Positions 7,460 to 44,978 of a stretch of 53,736 bases of DNA are shown here, one piece after another. The stretch spans positions 1 through 53,736 of the forward strand of contig DATKKJ010000021.1 in the NCBI GenBank assembly GCA_035543055.1, in the 5' to 3' direction. The translations under genes and the position numbers were made by a program. A model generated the notes under the pieces. The model ran no database searches. It saw nothing but the letters and a program-made list of their open reading frames with translations, and was not told where the DNA came from. The DNA comes from Terriglobales bacterium. Its GTDB lineage: Bacteria > Acidobacteriota > Terriglobia > Terriglobales > Acidobacteriaceae. Position 1 is the stretch's first letter. Each line of letters starts with the position of its first letter.

Positions 7460-8047
7460 ATGGCAAAAGGGAACGGAAAACCGGACCTGGATCTGGAGCA
7501 CGAGCTGCCTCCAGCTGAGAACGAAGACGAAACTGCGCCGAAAGCAGGCGCGTCCCAGGCGCAACCTCCGGCCGCTGAGGCCGGCCCGCAGGACGAGCTG
7601 CGCCAGTTGAAGGTCGAGCGTGACATGCTGTACGACCGCCTGGCACGGCTGCAGGCCGACTTCGAGAACCAGCGCAAGCGCCTGGCCAAGGAGCAGGCCG
7701 ATTACAAGGAGTACGCTCTGGCGGACGCGATCAAGGAGCTGTTGCCCATCGTGGACAGCTTCGATCGGGCGATCAAGCACGAAGGCGGCGAAGACAAAGA
7801 CTTTCGCTCCGGCGTCGAGCTCATCAACCGCCAGTTGCACGATGCCCTGGCCAAGCTCGGGGTGCGGCCCATCCCGGCGCAAGGCGAGCCGTTCGACCCC
7901 CACCTCCACCAGGCGGTCCAGATCGTGGACACCGACGAGGTGCCGGACCACCACGTCCTGGAAGAGCTGCAACGGGGATACAAACTGAAGGACCGGTTGC
8001 TGCGCCCGGCCATGGTCCGGGTCGCGCGCAACCCGAAGAAGCCATAA
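7460..8047 (+). CDS. grpE: GrpE nucleotide-exchange factor
   Basis: 195-aa GrpE. A charged, disordered N-terminus leads into the long dimerising helix (ERDMLYDRLARLQADFENQRKRLAKEQAD). The beta-wing follows with LGVRPIPAQGEPFDPHLHQAVQIVDTDEVPDHHVLEELQRGYKLKDRLLRPAMVRVA. GrpE releases ADP from DnaK. The gene begins 12 nt after hrcA and its TAA is in the same frame as the following dnaJ. Confidence 0.96.
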   Translation: MAKGNGKPDLDLEHELPPAENEDETAPKAGASQAQPPAAEAGPQDELRQLKVERDMLYDRLARLQADFENQRKRLAKEQADYKEYALADAIKELLPIVDSFDRAIKHEGGEDKDFRSGVELINRQLHDALAKLGVRPIPAQGEPFDPHLHQAVQIVDTDEVPDHHVLEELQRGYKLKDRLLRPAMVRVARNPKKP

Positions 8048-8056
8048 GGCGGACAT

Positions 8057-9187
8057 CTGGCCACGCAAGCAAAACGCGACTATTACGAGGTCCTGGGTGT
8101 AGGCCGCAGTGCGGGCGACCAGGAGATCAAGAGCGCTTACCGCAAGCTCGCCATGCAGTATCACCCAGACCGCAACCCGGGAAACCCGGAGGCGGAGGAA
8201 CGCTTCAAGGAGTGCAGCGAAGCCTATGCCGTGCTCTCCGACGCCAACAAGCGCGCCCAGTACGACCAGTTCGGTCATGCCGGGGTGAATGGCGGCGCGG
8301 TGCAGTTCGATCCATCGATCTTCAACGACATCCTGAGCGACCTGTTCGGGGGGTCGGACTTCTTTGGGTTCGGCGATCTGTTCGGCGGCGGAGGCCGCCG
8401 CCGCAGCCGTGCCCAGCGCGGCGCCGACCTGCGGGAGGACATCACCCTCGAATTCGAAGAGGCGGTGTTCGGGGTCAAGAAGGAGATCACCTACCGCCGC
8501 CACGAGATCTGCGAGCAATGCCACGGTTCGGGCGCGGCGCCCGGAAAGGCCCCGACCACCTGCCAGCAGTGCGGCGGGCGCGGCCAGGTCCGCTACCAGC
8601 AGGGGTTCTTCAGCGTGTCGCGTACCTGCCCGGCCTGCGGCGGCGTGGGCAGCGTGATCACCGATCCCTGCAAGAGCTGCAAGGGGCAGGGGCGGGTCCA
8701 GAAGCAGCGCACGAAGGAGATCGAGATTCCCGCCGGTGTCGAGGACGGCATGCGCGTCCGGCTGGCCGATGCCGGAGAGGCCGGCACGCACGGCGGCCCG
8801 CAGGGCGACCTCTATGTTGTCCTGCACGTGAAGGAGCACCCATTCTTCGCCCGCGAGGGCAACGACCTGCATTGCGTGCTGCCGATCTCCTACCCCCAGG
8901 CCGCCCTAGGGACGGAGCTGAAGGTGCCCACCCTGGACGGCGAGCACGCGCTGAAGGTGCCGGACGGCACCCAGAGCGGCACCGTCTTTCGGTTGAAAGG
9001 GAAGGGCGTCCCGCTGCTGAACGGCCGCGGAAAAGGCGACCTGTTCGTCGAAGTCCGAGTGCAGACCCCGAGCAAGCTCAGCAAGCGCGAGAAGGAGCTC
9101 CTGCAAGAGCTCGATTCCTTGCGCCGGGTGGATAACAAACCGGAACAACGGACGCTCTTCAGCAAAGTGAAGGACATCTTTCAGTAG
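8057..9187 (+). CDS. dnaJ: Chaperone DnaJ (apparent CTG start)
   Basis: 376-aa Hsp40. The J domain has HPD at 36-38. It is followed by a G/F-rich stretch, four CxxCxGxG zinc repeats (C152/C155, C169/C172, C191/C194, C205/C208) and the C-terminal substrate-binding domains. The J domain demands a start near 8057, where the codon is CTG. The only in-frame codons between the grpE TAA and this point are GGC, GGA and CAT, so no ATG, GTG or TTG is available. AAGGCGG (8046-8052) is a fair Shine-Dalgarno at correct spacing. The first in-frame ATG (8153) would delete half of the J domain. Either non-AUG initiation or a base error is possible. Confidence 0.93.
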   Translation: MATQAKRDYYEVLGVGRSAGDQEIKSAYRKLAMQYHPDRNPGNPEAEERFKECSEAYAVLSDANKRAQYDQFGHAGVNGGAVQFDPSIFNDILSDLFGGSDFFGFGDLFGGGGRRRSRAQRGADLREDITLEFEEAVFGVKKEITYRRHEICEQCHGSGAAPGKAPTTCQQCGGRGQVRYQQGFFSVSRTCPACGGVGSVITDPCKSCKGQGRVQKQRTKEIEIPAGVEDGMRVRLADAGEAGTHGGPQGDLYVVLHVKEHPFFAREGNDLHCVLPISYPQAALGTELKVPTLDGEHALKVPDGTQSGTVFRLKGKGVPLLNGRGKGDLFVEVRVQTPSKLSKREKELLQELDSLRRVDNKPEQRTLFSKVKDIFQ

Positions 9188-27504: not shown

Positions 27505-28146
27505 TTAGTGCAATGAACTCGATACGGCCATCTGATAGAGCATGGCTTTCTGGTCATAGGCGTACATCAGATGGTCTCGAGCCTCCTGGCTCTCCGGATG
27601 TTCCGCCAGCCTCTTCTCGGCATCCGCGATGTAGGAATTCACGCTCTTCAGGCTGTCTTCGTACGTTGTCCGCTCGGCGGGAACCAGCTGGGAAACCAGC
27701 TGGAGCAACTGAGCGTCTTCGGCATCGACGGCCGCAAGCGAGACCTCGGGAGCGGCAACCGGCTGTAAAGCGACTTCGCTTCCAGGCTGGTTGCGGCGCA
27801 CGTTGTAAGTGACAACCGCAAACGCGATGAGAACCACCGCGGCCACCGCGACCAGACTCTTGCCGGGGGCCCAGCGGGCCGGTATCACTGCGACTGGGGA
27901 CGGAAATCGGCCCGTCCCAGCGGGACGCACCAGCCCTTCCCGCTCGAGCGCAGCCTGGATGCCGGTCCACACCTTGGGGCTGGGGTCCACCATCGGCACC
28001 AACAGTTTGGCCTGCTCGGCGATGTATTTGAGGTCCGCCACCAGGTCGGAACAGACAGGACAGCTCTCCTGATGAGCTTGCTCCTCGGCGTTACCGCCGC
28101 TCTCGATGATGAAGGGAAGCACCTTCTGGAATTCGGCGCATGTCAT
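27505..28146 (-). CDS. Anti-sigma factor (zinc-binding ZAS type)
   Basis: 213-aa single-pass membrane protein. The N-terminus has C3 and the H25-x3-C29-x2-C32 motif of zinc-containing anti-sigma domains. A transmembrane helix spans about 97-116 (SLVAVAAVVLIAFAVVTYNV). The C-terminal part is periplasmic and helical (SLKSVNSYIADAEKRLAEHPES). It would hold the sigma factor encoded 46 nt upstream at the membrane until an envelope or redox signal releases it. Confidence 0.85.
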   Translation of the reverse strand: MTCAEFQKVLPFIIESGGNAEEQAHQESCPVCSDLVADLKYIAEQAKLLVPMVDPSPKVWTGIQAALEREGLVRPAGTGRFPSPVAVIPARWAPGKSLVAVAAVVLIAFAVVTYNVRRNQPGSEVALQPVAAPEVSLAAVDAEDAQLLQLVSQLVPAERTTYEDSLKSVNSYIADAEKRLAEHPESQEARDHLMYAYDQKAMLYQMAVSSSLH

Positions 28147-28192: not shown

Positions 28193-28798
28193 TCATCGGC
28201 GTGGGGCCTTTTCGGCTCTGCTCAACTTGAGGAGGTCGCGCAGCTTCATTCTCGCCTTGTGGAGCTGCGATTTGCTGTTGCCGATCGAGCACCCCAGCAT
28301 CTCGGCGATCTCGTTGTGCTCGTAGCCTTCGATATCGTGCAGCACGAAGATGATGCGATAGCCGGGAGGCAGGCTCTCGATGGCCCGCTCCAGATTGATC
28401 CGGTCGATGGAGCCGGCCAGCACGGTGTCCCGCGTCCCGATATCCCTCTTCGGCCCGTCATCCTGCTGAGGCTCCAAGGTCGCTTCCAGCGAAACCTCAG
28501 GCAGGCCCTTCTTGCGCAGGTGCATCAGCACCACGTTCACGGCCAGCCGGTGCAACCAGGTGGAGAAGGCGGACTCACCCCGGAACGTCGCGATCTTGCG
28601 GTACAGCTGCAGGAACGCCTCCTGGGTCAGGTCTTCGGCCTCGGCCGTGTTGCCGGTCATGCGGAGACACAGCGAATAGACACGGCGTTTGTGGAGACCA
28701 TACAGGGCCTCGAACGATTCCGCGTCTCCCCGCTTGGCTCGGTCAATCGCCTCTGCCTCTGAGAGCCCGGGAGCTATGATTTTCTTAGCTTGGGTCAA
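28193..28798 (-). CDS. ECF RNA polymerase sigma factor (RpoE/SigW-like)
   Basis: 201-aa extracytoplasmic-function sigma factor. Region 2 is [68 protein letters not shown]. Region 4 runs [50 protein letters not shown], with an HTH recognition helix. It directs RNA polymerase to a stress regulon, probably including itself and the downstream anti-sigma and DUF4097 genes. The start is a TTG at 28798; no in-frame ATG lies upstream. Confidence 0.94.
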
Positions 28799-42658: not shown

Positions 42659-42679
42659 TTACACAGGCAGGTGTAAAAT
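42659..42679 (+). promoter_or_regulatory. Inverted repeat over the -10 of the HPF-sigma operon
   Basis: TTACAC-N6-GTGTAA (42659-42676) is a perfect 6-bp dyad. TAAAAT (42674-42679) is the -10 candidate and shares its last arm. A possible -35 is TTGCCT at 42649-42654, but the spacer (19 nt) is long. The dyad is placed to act as an operator for the sigma/HPF operon. The leader to the ATG at 42749 is about 65 nt. Confidence 0.5.
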
Positions 42680-42748
42680 TCTCTCCGGAGCAAGTGCAGC
42701 AGCCGCAAGGAACGGCCAGTGGGGTTCCAGCCGCGTCCCGAGGTAGCC

Positions 42749-43792
42749 ATGAACGTCCATATCTCCTACAAGGCCGCAAGAGCTCCCGAGATCGAAAAGG
42801 AATTCCACCAACAGATCGAGAAGCTGGGCCGGAGGCTGGCGGTCTTCCGCCCCGACCTGGTGCACTTGAAGGCCATTGTCGAGGAGAATCACCCGCGGGA
42901 GGGAACAGCCGTCTCTCTGAACCTGCGCCTGCCCTCCGGGCAGATGGCGGCACAGAAAACCAACCACACCGCCGTCTCTGCGGTCAAAGCAGCCTTTGCT
43001 GACCTTGTTTCCCAGCTTACGAAACACAAAGAGCAGCTTCGCGGCCACAAACGGCCCCCGATGCGCCGGCGCACCCAGCGCGACGAATTGCGCAACGCCG
43101 TCCCCTTTGAGAGGACCTTCGCCGCCATTCATCCGCCGAAGGTCTCCGACACCGATATTTCCACCTGGATCAACGCCAACCTCGCCCGCCTGAACGCCTT
43201 TGTGGAGCGTGAAATTGCCTACCGCGAAGCCAACGGCATGCTGGAAGAAGGCGCCGTGACCCGGGAAGAGGTCGTCAACGAAGCCATCGCTACGGCTTTA
43301 GGCGACGAAGAGAAGCCGGAGCTGCTGACCCTGGAGCGCTGGCTCTATCGCCTGGCGCTTCGCTCCATCCACCACATCGTCGCCAACGACACCGAGGCCG
43401 TCACCGCCGTCCCCCTGGAGGATTCCGCCCGCAAGCAGAACGTCCGCGGCAGCGACGAGCCCGAACTGCAGTTCCATCAGCCCGACGAGATGCTGCACCG
43501 CTCCGACGTCATCCCCGATCGGCGGACCTCGGACCCCGAGCAAGCCGCCTCCTCGGTCGAGATGGTGAACCTGGTGGAGAGCTCGCTGCGCGGCGCCGCC
43601 CGCGAAGACCGTGAAGCTTTCATTCTCTTCGCGATCGAGGGCTTCACGCTGGACGAGATTGCGGCCACCACCGACCGCAAGCTCGATCAGGTCCACGCCT
43701 CCATCGCCACTGCCCGCGAGCTCGTCCGGCAGAAGATGCCGCCCTCCAGCTTGTGGCGCGAAAAGCTTTTGCGACACACCAAGATCGCCTGA
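42749..43792 (+). CDS. HPF/RaiA ribosome-hibernation domain fused to an ECF-type sigma factor
   Basis: 347-aa two-domain protein. Residues 1-105 are an HPF/RaiA domain (beta-alpha-beta-beta-beta-alpha), with LRLPSGQMAAQKTNHTAVSAVKAA and the diagnostic LTKHKEQLRGHKRP end. Residues about 135-215 look like sigma region 2 (VTREEVVNEAIATALG, then LERWLYRLALRS). Residues 276-330 look like region 4 (LRGAAREDREAFILFAIEGFTLDEIAATTDRKLDQVHASIATARELVR, the HTH). HPF domains silence ribosomes; ECF factors recruit RNA polymerase. The aRF1-like gene follows after 22 nt. The start is the ATG at 42749; the longer reading adds ten residues with no support. The fusion is the most unusual gene in the window. 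Confidence 0.87.
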   Translation: MNVHISYKAARAPEIEKEFHQQIEKLGRRLAVFRPDLVHLKAIVEENHPREGTAVSLNLRLPSGQMAAQKTNHTAVSAVKAAFADLVSQLTKHKEQLRGHKRPPMRRRTQRDELRNAVPFERTFAAIHPPKVSDTDISTWINANLARLNAFVEREIAYREANGMLEEGAVTREEVVNEAIATALGDEEKPELLTLERWLYRLALRSIHHIVANDTEAVTAVPLEDSARKQNVRGSDEPELQFHQPDEMLHRSDVIPDRRTSDPEQAASSVEMVNLVESSLRGAAREDREAFILFAIEGFTLDEIAATTDRKLDQVHASIATARELVRQKMPPSSLWREKLLRHTKIA

Positions 43793-43814
43793 ACCCGTTT
43801 TTCAGGAGAACGCG

Positions 43815-44978
43815 ATGATCACGCGTGAGGAACTCCGTTATCTGGCAGAGATCGACAACACCGGTGATTCCGCTATCAGCTTCTATTTCCAACCCGAGAC
43901 TCCGAAGGACCGTTCGCACCGCGAGGAGACCATCCTGCTCAAGGACATGGTCCGCGACGCGCTCCGCCATGCCGGGCGCAGCCCCGGGCACGGCGACAGG
44001 AAGAAGGATCTGCACCGCATCCTGGAGAAGGCGGAGCAGTGGAAGGGCGGCTCCAAGGCCAAGGTGATCTTCGCCTGCGGCGCCCGCGGCATCTGGCGGG
44101 AATACGAAGTCCCACCCCGCCTCCAGAAGTCACAACTCGTCGTCAATGATCGCTTCCATCTCAAGCCGCTGGCGCGGCTGGTCGAGGCGTTTCCCCGTGC
44201 CTGCGTCCTGCTGACCGACCGGGAGCACGCCCGCTTCTTCACCATCCGCGCCGGCGAGATCCAGGAGGCGGGCGAGATCCGGACCCAGACGCCGCGCAAG
44301 GCGCGCAGCGACGGCTTCGCCGGCTACGACGCCGGCCACGCCGAGCGCCACGTCGAGAACGAGGCGATGAAGCACTTCAAAGCCGTATCGGACCGCCTGC
44401 AGGGCCTGCATCAGTCCGCCGGCTGCGGTTCCTTCCTGGTCGGGTGTCGCGAGGACACCTGGCCTGACATCGAACCGCATTTGCATCCCTATGTGCGCCA
44501 GTGCCTCATCGGGCACTTCAATGTTGACCCGGGACTTGCCACCAAGGAGCAGGTGCTGGAGCACGCCAGCCGGCGCCTCCGGGAGCATGAGCAGTCACAG
44601 CGCCAGGGGATGGTGCGCGAGGTGCTCGGCGAAGCTCATCGCAACGGGCGCGGCGCAGTCGGCCTGCGCCACGTCCTGATGTCCCTGGAGAAAGGCGAAG
44701 TGCAGAGCCTCTTGCTGAGCGACCGCTTCTCCGCCGCCGCCAGCCGCTGCCAGCATTGCGGGCATATGGATATCCGCATGGTCCGCCACTGCGCCGTCTG
44801 CGGCCAGAAGACCCGGGAGATCGACGATGTCGCCGATGCCCTCATCGGCATCGCCATTCGCAAGGGCATCTCCGTGGTGTACGTGCGCGACGAGCCGGAG
44901 TTCGAGAAGGCCGGCAACATCGGCGCGCTACTTCGCTTCCGTGCCGACCAGAGCACACCCAAGAAACTCGCCGTCTGA
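43815..44978 (+). CDS. Bacterial aeRF1-like (baeRF) protein with zinc ribbon
   Basis: 387-aa homologue of archaeal/eukaryotic release factor 1. Residues about 105-200 match the domain-2 fold (CVLLTDREHARFFTIRAGEIQ). From about 280 the domain-3 pattern follows: ALGLRHVLMSLEKGEVQSLLLSDRF in style, a zinc ribbon CQHC-x10-CAVC (C312/C315/C326/C329) and VVYV...GNIGALLRFR. Where eRF1 has GGQ, this protein has GFAGYDAGH (168-176), so peptidyl-tRNA hydrolysis by the usual mechanism is doubtful. A strong Shine-Dalgarno (AGGAG) precedes the ATG at 43815. It follows the HPF-sigma gene by 22 nt, so the pair is an operon. Likely role: ribosome binding, rescue or hibernation, by inference. Confidence 0.78.
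   Translation: MITREELRYLAEIDNTGDSAISFYFQPETPKDRSHREETILLKDMVRDALRHAGRSPGHGDRKKDLHRILEKAEQWKGGSKAKVIFACGARGIWREYEVPPRLQKSQLVVNDRFHLKPLARLVEAFPRACVLLTDREHARFFTIRAGEIQEAGEIRTQTPRKARSDGFAGYDAGHAERHVENEAMKHFKAVSDRLQGLHQSAGCGSFLVGCREDTWPDIEPHLHPYVRQCLIGHFNVDPGLATKEQVLEHASRRLREHEQSQRQGMVREVLGEAHRNGRGAVGLRHVLMSLEKGEVQSLLLSDRFSAAASRCQHCGHMDIRMVRHCAVCGQKTREIDDVADALIGIAIRKGISVVYVRDEPEFEKAGNIGALLRFRADQSTPKKLAV

Follow-up and report, generated by a model that had tools for sequence, protein, structure and literature searches.

An HPF–sigma-like fusion protein and a Balon-family partner form a conserved operon in Acidobacteriota

A two-gene operon of a Terriglobales bacterium (Acidobacteriota; Acidobacteriaceae) encodes a protein in which an HPF/RaiA ribosome-hibernation domain is joined to a sigma-factor-like module, followed by a member of the Balon family of hibernation factors. 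The operon lies on contig DATKKJ010000021.1 of assembly GCA_035543055.1, and we refer to the whole stretch that was analysed, 53,736 nucleotides (nt), as the window (Table 1). The architecture, conservation and kinship of the fusion are well supported, and a role in ribosome hibernation is likely. The complete mechanism that we favour, at a probability of roughly 45%, is a hibernation factor whose sigma half would dock on the transcription machinery without reading promoters and which would be made together with Balon in Acidobacteriota. An earlier note on this DNA had proposed that the chain couples ribosomes to transcription; its domain calls, its operon and the idea of a link fit our results, whereas the promoter-choosing sigma factor that it envisaged was weakened by them.

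Results

HPF and sigma-like folds in one chain

Scanned on its own, the window fusion came close to the Pfam model Ribosomal_S30AE (PF02482; 22.7 bits, cut-off 23.7, residues 14–98), and the sigma-70 region 4 and sigma70-ECF (extracytoplasmic function) models matched it weakly across residues 154–330. Sigma70_r4_2 reached 20.7 bits (cut-off 25.7), TIGR02937 (sigma70-ECF) reached 31.6 (cut-off 42.9) and Sigma70_r2 was not among the matches. Because these single-sequence scores lay under the curated cut-offs, by 1 bit for S30AE, relatives were brought in. When 84,980 species' genomes were scanned with alignment A2, 130 pattern matches and 99 relatives emerged, and the 80 best relatives were retained. 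The scan patterns had been built on acidobacterial sequences, which left other phyla hardly covered, and all of the best 80 came from acidobacterial records: 72 close relatives at 41–57% identity to the window fusion and 8 distant ones. Alignment A1 was made without L016, which has a stop in the chosen stretch, and the truncated L021; alignment A4 holds 68 members, the window protein and 67 of 76 usable loci (nine were left out). Across A4, matches at E ≤ 0.01 were obtained for S30AE in 67 members, for Sigma70_r4_2 in all 68 and for Sigma70_r2 in only one, and in a genome search S30AE exceeded its cut-off for the window fusion (25.4 bits).

The earlier note had placed an HPF/RaiA domain and sigma regions 2 and 4 in a single 347-residue chain and had named a structure model as the check. 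Both folds were recovered. The model (mean predicted local distance difference test score (pLDDT) 77.9; predicted template-modelling score 0.47) shows the beta-alpha-beta-beta-beta-alpha fold of HPF at residues 2–99, three helices at 134–217, a stretch of low confidence, and four helices at 263–329. The HPF domain superimposed on Vibrio cholerae HPF (4hei) with Z 15.5 and a root-mean-square deviation (rmsd) of 1.4 over 91 aligned residues, and on RaiA from the Balon-bound Psychrobacter ribosome with Z 15.1; the basic residues of its second helix are kept throughout A4 (K94 and K/R92, each 68 of 68). Residues 133–338 matched the NepR-bound sigma factor RpoE/EcfG 5uxx (Z 13.1, rmsd 4.1, 148 residues aligned) and, at Z 11.1 each, SigG1 and the PhyR sigma-like domain, although Z values of 13 can arise by chance between helical bundles. 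Even so, the sequence profile agrees with the sigma assignment: A4 hit sigmaE-type factors as well as HPF proteins in the PDB, and it aligned in register with regions 2.2–2.4 (about 5 bits) and 4 (about 39 bits) of sigmaE.

One reading of these matches is a PhyR-like anti-anti-sigma factor: leaving the ribosome (or binding it) would let the mimic titrate an anti-sigma factor, and a stress sigma factor would thereby be set free. We consider it improbable. The PhyR_sigma-like Pfam model did match all 68 A4 members at E ≤ 0.01, and both the PhyR domain and NepR-bound EcfG are among the fold matches, but the window fusion stays under the PF22233 cut-off (21.6 against 27 bits), no receiver-domain model matched it at E ≤ 1 in a Pfam scan, and the better best E-value belongs to Sigma70_r4_2 (7.1e-11 against 1.7e-8 for PhyR_sigma-like).

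The sigma-like module has mostly lost promoter-contact residues

Residues R149, R171, R173, R176 and N80 of sigmaE were taken as promoter-DNA contact positions (−35/−10) and compared between the fusions and ECF sigma factors of the same genome. Residues were counted in 78 fusions, two of 80 sequences without a recognisable sigma4 anchor being left out, and in 10 own-genome ECF factors, three of 13 hits having been dropped as not sigma-like; the N80 comparison used nine of them, one further ECF factor (L140) being excluded. Lysine or arginine was absent from all 78 fusions at the R149 and R173 positions (6 of 10 and 5 of 10 ECF factors, respectively), and was found in 30 of 78 at R171 and 14 of 78 at R176, where 9 of 10 ECF factors carry it in each case. 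Asparagine occupied the N80 position in 2 of 68 fusions against 8 of 9 ECF factors. The window fusion itself carries F, H, S, T and R, in that order, at R149, R171, R173, R176 and N80. None of 68 fusions keeps the region 2.2 glutamine, which is replaced by D, N or G in every one, and the mean net charge of the recognition helix is +2.45 in ECF factors including sigmaE, +0.70 in close fusions and −1.80 in distant fusions. The claim of the earlier note that the C-terminal half chooses promoters is weakened by these changes, which run across the family.

Other parts of the module are strongly conserved. The QPD linker motif is present in 67 of 68 A4 members; the segment around it, residues 239–266, is the most conserved block over 34 diverse members, with the motif missing in one; and the region 2 residues V175, E178 and W198 are retained in 61, 66 and 68 of 68. 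In a profile of proteobacterial relatives (see below), the stretch right after the QPD motif aligned with the segment that precedes region 4 of WhiG, which we take to be region 3.2. Because the promoter-contact positions are mostly lost and QPD is near-invariant, a working, promoter-choosing ECF factor is less probable than a docking sigma mimic. The pattern suggests a sigma-shaped module that would keep partner contacts and have given up promoter reading.

The loss of DNA-contact residues would also suit a plain hibernation factor, in which the sigma-like fold is a relic reused structurally, perhaps standing in for the long-HPF dimerisation domain, and makes no contact with transcription. Long HPF consists of an HPF domain, a linker and then a further domain, and the fusion resembles it in carrying its sigma-like domain after HPF and a low-confidence linker; the operon partner, Balon, is moreover a ribosome factor. 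We nevertheless hold this reading to be rather unlikely: the near-invariant QPDE and 3.2-like linker lie in a low-confidence stretch of the model and fit a docking motif better than a structural core, and the three region 2 residues named above are kept.

The second gene belongs to the Balon family

The earlier note had described a GGQ-less, eRF1-like zinc-ribbon gene 22 nt downstream, and our analysis bore this out. Within the 22-nt gap, an AGGAG stands 6 nt ahead of the second ATG. The 387-residue product matched Pfam baeRF_family10 above its cut-off (65.2 bits), the four cysteines of the zinc ribbon are invariant in 41 sequences, and neither a GGQ nor a NIKS string occurs in its sequence; the GGQ stretch of archaeal aRF1 falls in a poorly aligned GFAGYDAGH region. 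Its model (pLDDT 83.3) found as best PDB match 8v9j, the Balon Msmeg1130 (template-modelling scores 0.74/0.79, E 7.6e-23), and then archaeal aRF1. Three NCBIfam models of ribosome-hibernation factors scored 44.7, 41.6 and 34.9 bits, all far under their equivalog cut-offs of 480, 320 and 330. The protein is thus a member of the Balon family and not an equivalog of the three named families. No second Balon was found in the same genome at E ≤ 0.001.

A 2024 study described Balon as a hibernation factor encoded in operons with RaiA, Hsp20, HdeD and sigma70 genes (PMC10901736), and gene neighbourhoods joining baeRF and HPF had been noted in 2019 (PMC6514570). The eRF1-like partner, which the earlier note thought could recognise stalled or hibernating ribosomes, is therefore a new member of an already described family.

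The fusion is fixed in relatives and the operon probably arose once

The earlier note had left open whether relatives share the fusion as a fixed feature, and our counts show that they do. With the window fusion as query at E ≤ 1e-6, matches were found in 21 of 297 genomes sampled across the phylum, 7 of them in the same family (the window included; the others at 46–79% identity) and 14 in other families (25–31%). A genus-spread sample of the family gave matches in 68 of 120 genomes, most of full length and several only fragments. Among the 80 loci, 74 match from residue 1–3 to residue 300 or beyond; of the other six, two end at contig ends (L052, L107), two have undetermined bases near the start (L111, L119) and in two the local alignment begins later (L049, L114). 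A split near residue 110 into two separate genes was not seen among the loci examined, and a chance open reading frame or assembly chimera is ruled out by the single frame in many independent genomes. In two incomplete genomes among the 68 of the family sample (G389:C444 and G398:C63) the halves lie adjacent in different frames, as broken copies or sequencing errors.

The fusion also recurs with the eRF1-like gene, an outcome that the earlier note had named as support for its idea. A Balon match follows the fusion match by 21–154 nt in 63 of the 72 close loci; where both gene ends could be read (56 loci) the gap is 12–84 nt. The remaining nine comprise two at a contig edge (L079, L118), one broken remnant (L070) and six with no downstream match. 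In L070 a frame-broken Balon remnant (8045–8360) stands after an intact fusion, which shows that a fusion can persist after Balon has decayed. An adjoining Balon gene is missing from all 8 distant loci, and of the 14 genomes with distant fusions four encode Balon, in no case adjacent. Over the phylum sample, Balon is present in 64 of 297 genomes and in 10 of the 21 with the fusion (Fisher p 0.005, uncorrected for relatedness). Because the close group forms one clade (tree of 51 rows, support 100/100), the Balon operon probably arose once, with Balon lost later in some members. Six of the 8 distant loci (L045–L047, L049–L051) carry the fusion ahead of what is presumably an aspartate-aminotransferase-like gene, and in L045–L047 and L050 it follows a presumed YhaM exonuclease-like gene.

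A conserved promoter-like box precedes the operon

A promoter-like box, also written GGTGTANAAT, lies upstream of the fusion operon. Of 70 upstream regions, taken from close relatives and the window, 69 carry its family consensus 58–103 nt ahead of the ATG; in a comparison with shuffled sequence the box stood in 67 of 68 upstream regions against an expected 0.095. In the same genome RGGTGTANAAT gave 5 hits against 1 for the reversed pattern, and the four outside the operon share no common theme. Across 120 family genomes a longer form of the box gave 68 hits against 21 for the reversed control, with 0–3 per genome; by hand count, 21 stand just before the fusion gene and 47 elsewhere (about 0.4 per genome). 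The box thus marks the fusion operon, and a few other targets are possible; no large regulon is visible in these 120 genomes, and a weak excess elsewhere remains.

These results bear on the view of the earlier note, a working ECF-type sigma factor governed by ribosome occupancy, which would be stored or delivered on idle ribosomes and whose free form would transcribe its own operon and perhaps a few others. Autoregulation predicts a box ahead of nearly every fusion gene, the hits elsewhere would allow a small regulon, and regions 2.2–2.4 and 4 are in register with sigmaE. Two members pass TIGR02937, and no anti-sigma gene was noticed beside the fusion in the listed loci, where no family search was aimed at one. 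Against this stand the changed contact positions and a box too rare for a large regulon; the TANAAT within it could, in addition, serve the housekeeping holoenzyme as a −10 element. On balance we think a working sigma factor unlikely.

In the leader (window positions 42683–42748), hairpins that pair the GAGG Shine–Dalgarno sequence were predicted in two sets of 15 close-relative leaders. The two leader types show two-sided changes in 0 of 10 and 1 of 8 hairpin pairs, which is little covariation for a possible RNA switch.

Proteobacterial relatives include orf11 of a mobile heat-tolerance island

Searching plasmids by tblastn with the window fusion returned near-full-length hits in Alpha-, Beta- and Gammaproteobacteria. 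On an Escherichia coli IncHI1A plasmid the matching gene stands in a heat-tolerance island, flanked by hdeD-GI and trx-GI, where the published gene order of tLST places orf11 (PMC8290217). We conclude that orf11 of the mobile tLST/LHR island (L144:9001–10146 and relatives) encodes an HPF–sigma-like protein. Ten plasmid proteins aligned with the acidobacterial profile over its full length (hhalign probability 100, E 5.8e-43, 330 columns), and their own profile hit sigma factors and HPF proteins in the PDB. orf11 shares the HPF–sigma–QPD layout and this full-length profile match; it differs in being only 22–25% identical to the window protein, in a longer tail and in having no Balon annotated in the stretches fetched.

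Matches to orf11 occur in 152 of 5426 complete E. coli genomes, 144 of which have at least 80% of the gene, and in 298 plasmid records, 265 of which reach the same coverage; the plasmid counts use a search with the plasmid protein P0003, an earlier search at E ≤ 1 having given 1505 records including weak hits. The relatives lie in stress islands that variously carry Hsp20, ClpK or an AAA ATPase, FtsH, HdeD and Trx: copies in Paracoccus and Roseomonas stand among Hsp20, FtsH, AAA ATPase and HdeD genes, one in Agrobacterium between an ATPase and HdeD, and one in Paraburkholderia (L154:4887–8275) directly ahead of groES–groEL–dnaK. The annotations seen are hypothetical protein in Gammaproteobacteria and sigma-70, sigma-28 or FliA in Alpha- and Betaproteobacteria. 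In print, orf11 is 'hypothetical' or less than 30% identical to known proteins (PMC5383660, PMC8290217), and the portions of the published accounts consulted contain no link to HPF or sigma factors.

Layout of the locus and other genes of the genome

Table 1. Elements of the fusion operon, as positions in the window
Feature	Position	Strand	Remarks
Promoter-like box AGGTGTAAAAT	42669–42679	+	Family consensus GG[TA]GTAN[AG]AT; 69 nt from box end to fusion ATG
Ribosome-binding site GAGG of the fusion gene	42740–42743	+	From sequence; invariant in 27 aligned leaders
HPF–sigma-like fusion gene, 347 residues	42749–43792	+	ATG 42749, stop 43790–43792; from sequence and homologues
HPF/RaiA domain, residues 1–100	42749–43048	+	Beta-alpha-beta-beta-beta-alpha; Pfam, model and structure match
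Variable linker, residues 101–133	43049–43147	+	Model confidence partly low
Sigma region 2-like three-helix domain, residues 134–217	43148–43399	+	Region 2.2 Gln and −10 Asn positions altered
Linker motif F-H-Q-P-D-E and region 3.2-like stretch, residues 239–266	43463–43546	+	Best-conserved segment in the family
Sigma region 4-like helix-turn-helix, residues 267–330	43547–43738	+	DNA-contact positions mostly altered
Balon-family gene, 387 residues	43815–44978	+	ATG 43815, stop 44976–44978; GGQ-less; zinc ribbon C312/C315/C326/C329

The window also contains an ordinary ECF sigma factor gene (28193–28798, minus strand) followed by a gene (27505–28146, minus strand) whose HxxxCxxC-type start, judged by eye, resembles zinc anti-sigma factors. 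Elsewhere in the genome a separate HPF gene follows an rpoN-like gene (L001, C20:18573–18842), and 3 kb beyond it lies a second HPF piece (L002, C20:21835–22038) within a 96-residue open frame, near-identical over about 67 residues.

Discussion

In the mechanism that we favour, the operon would make two ribosome-hibernation proteins, the fusion and Balon. Judging from their families, the HPF half would bind the mRNA/tRNA channel of idle 30S subunits while Balon would fill the A site of the same ribosomes; Balon and RaiA have been shown on one ribosome in Psychrobacter (PMC10901736). The sigma-like module appears to keep its fold, part of the region 2.2 helix and the near-invariant 3.2-like linker, with promoter-reading residues mostly lost; its most likely role would be to dock on core RNA polymerase or an anti-sigma factor, with no part in promoter choice. 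Ribosome parking and transcription would be linked through one chain, with a partner and a direction of signalling that we infer. A more specific version, which we regard as possible but doubtful, is a dual hibernation factor: the HPF half would park idle ribosomes and the promoter-blind, sigma-shaped half (the region 2.2 helix and a QPDE/3.2-like finger) would park idle RNA polymerase, both being stored and released together, beside Balon in Acidobacteriota and in mobile heat-tolerance islands of Proteobacteria (orf11).

Several observations weigh against the docking mechanism. The binding partners of both halves are predicted. True ECF factors and the PhyR mimic both match the fold, so the fold cannot discriminate between them, and a basic residue persists at the R171 position in part of the family. 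Two alphaproteobacterial members score 47.1 and 44.3 bits with the sigma70-ECF model, above its cut-off of 42.9. The conserved box could mean self-recognition by a working sigma factor, and away from the fusion gene it is about twice as frequent as the reversed control (47 against 21 in 120 genomes). On the HPF side, P0003 alone gave no S30AE match, and position 94 is F or V in place of K in the three plasmid relatives checked. Finally, in the parts of the study consulted, deletion of orf11 in E. coli MG1655 lacZ::LHR is not among the tLST deletions that lower heat or chlorine resistance (PMC8407380), which makes a large role in surviving acute stress less likely; those parts give results on neither the state of ribosomes nor recovery from dormancy.

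The fusion shares its N-terminal fold, basic second helix and presumed 30S channel site with short HPF/RaiA (YfiA) and long HPF (PF02482); it has a sigma2–sigma4-like module where long HPF has its dimerisation domain, and its genome additionally keeps a separate HPF gene. HibA, an archaeal fusion, likewise combines HPF with a second module in one hibernation factor, but that module is CBS, with HPF at the C terminus, and the available part of its description names no sigma fusion (PMC13324472). With Balon, MSMEG_1130 and Rv2629 the second gene shares its fold, the absence of GGQ and a stress operon beside an HPF domain (PMC10901736); it differs in its low equivalog scores (44.7 of 480 bits at best) and as a baeRF family 10 protein with a zinc ribbon, known here from sequence and model, the word 'zinc' having 0 occurrences in the main text of the Balon paper (PMC10901736). 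In stationary-phase E. coli, Rsd together with RMF and HPF likewise shuts transcription and translation down jointly, but as separate proteins, and Rsd holds the sigma factor RpoD, whereas the sigma-like module of the fusion would bind the other side (PMC6904343). ECF sigma factors and the PhyR sigma-like domain share with the fusion the sigma2 and sigma4 folds and regions alignable to sigmaE; the fusion differs from them in its N-terminal HPF domain, its QPDE linker, its mostly changed promoter-contact positions and the lack of a detected receiver domain. The literature searched, with supplements outside its scope and some sources covered in part, yielded no earlier description of an HPF–sigma fusion.

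Dormant bacteria shut down transcription and translation together, and E. coli uses separate proteins to do so. A conserved chain that physically joins both sides would make transcription–translation coupling directly testable. For orf11, a gene without an explanation so far in a mobile heat- and chlorine-tolerance island, the family supplies a domain assignment and a hypothesis. It also flags proteins that carry the annotation sigma-70, sigma-28 or FliA but may not read promoters as sigma factors do. In the bacteria that carry it, the fusion may link the shutdown of protein synthesis to the shutdown of gene reading.

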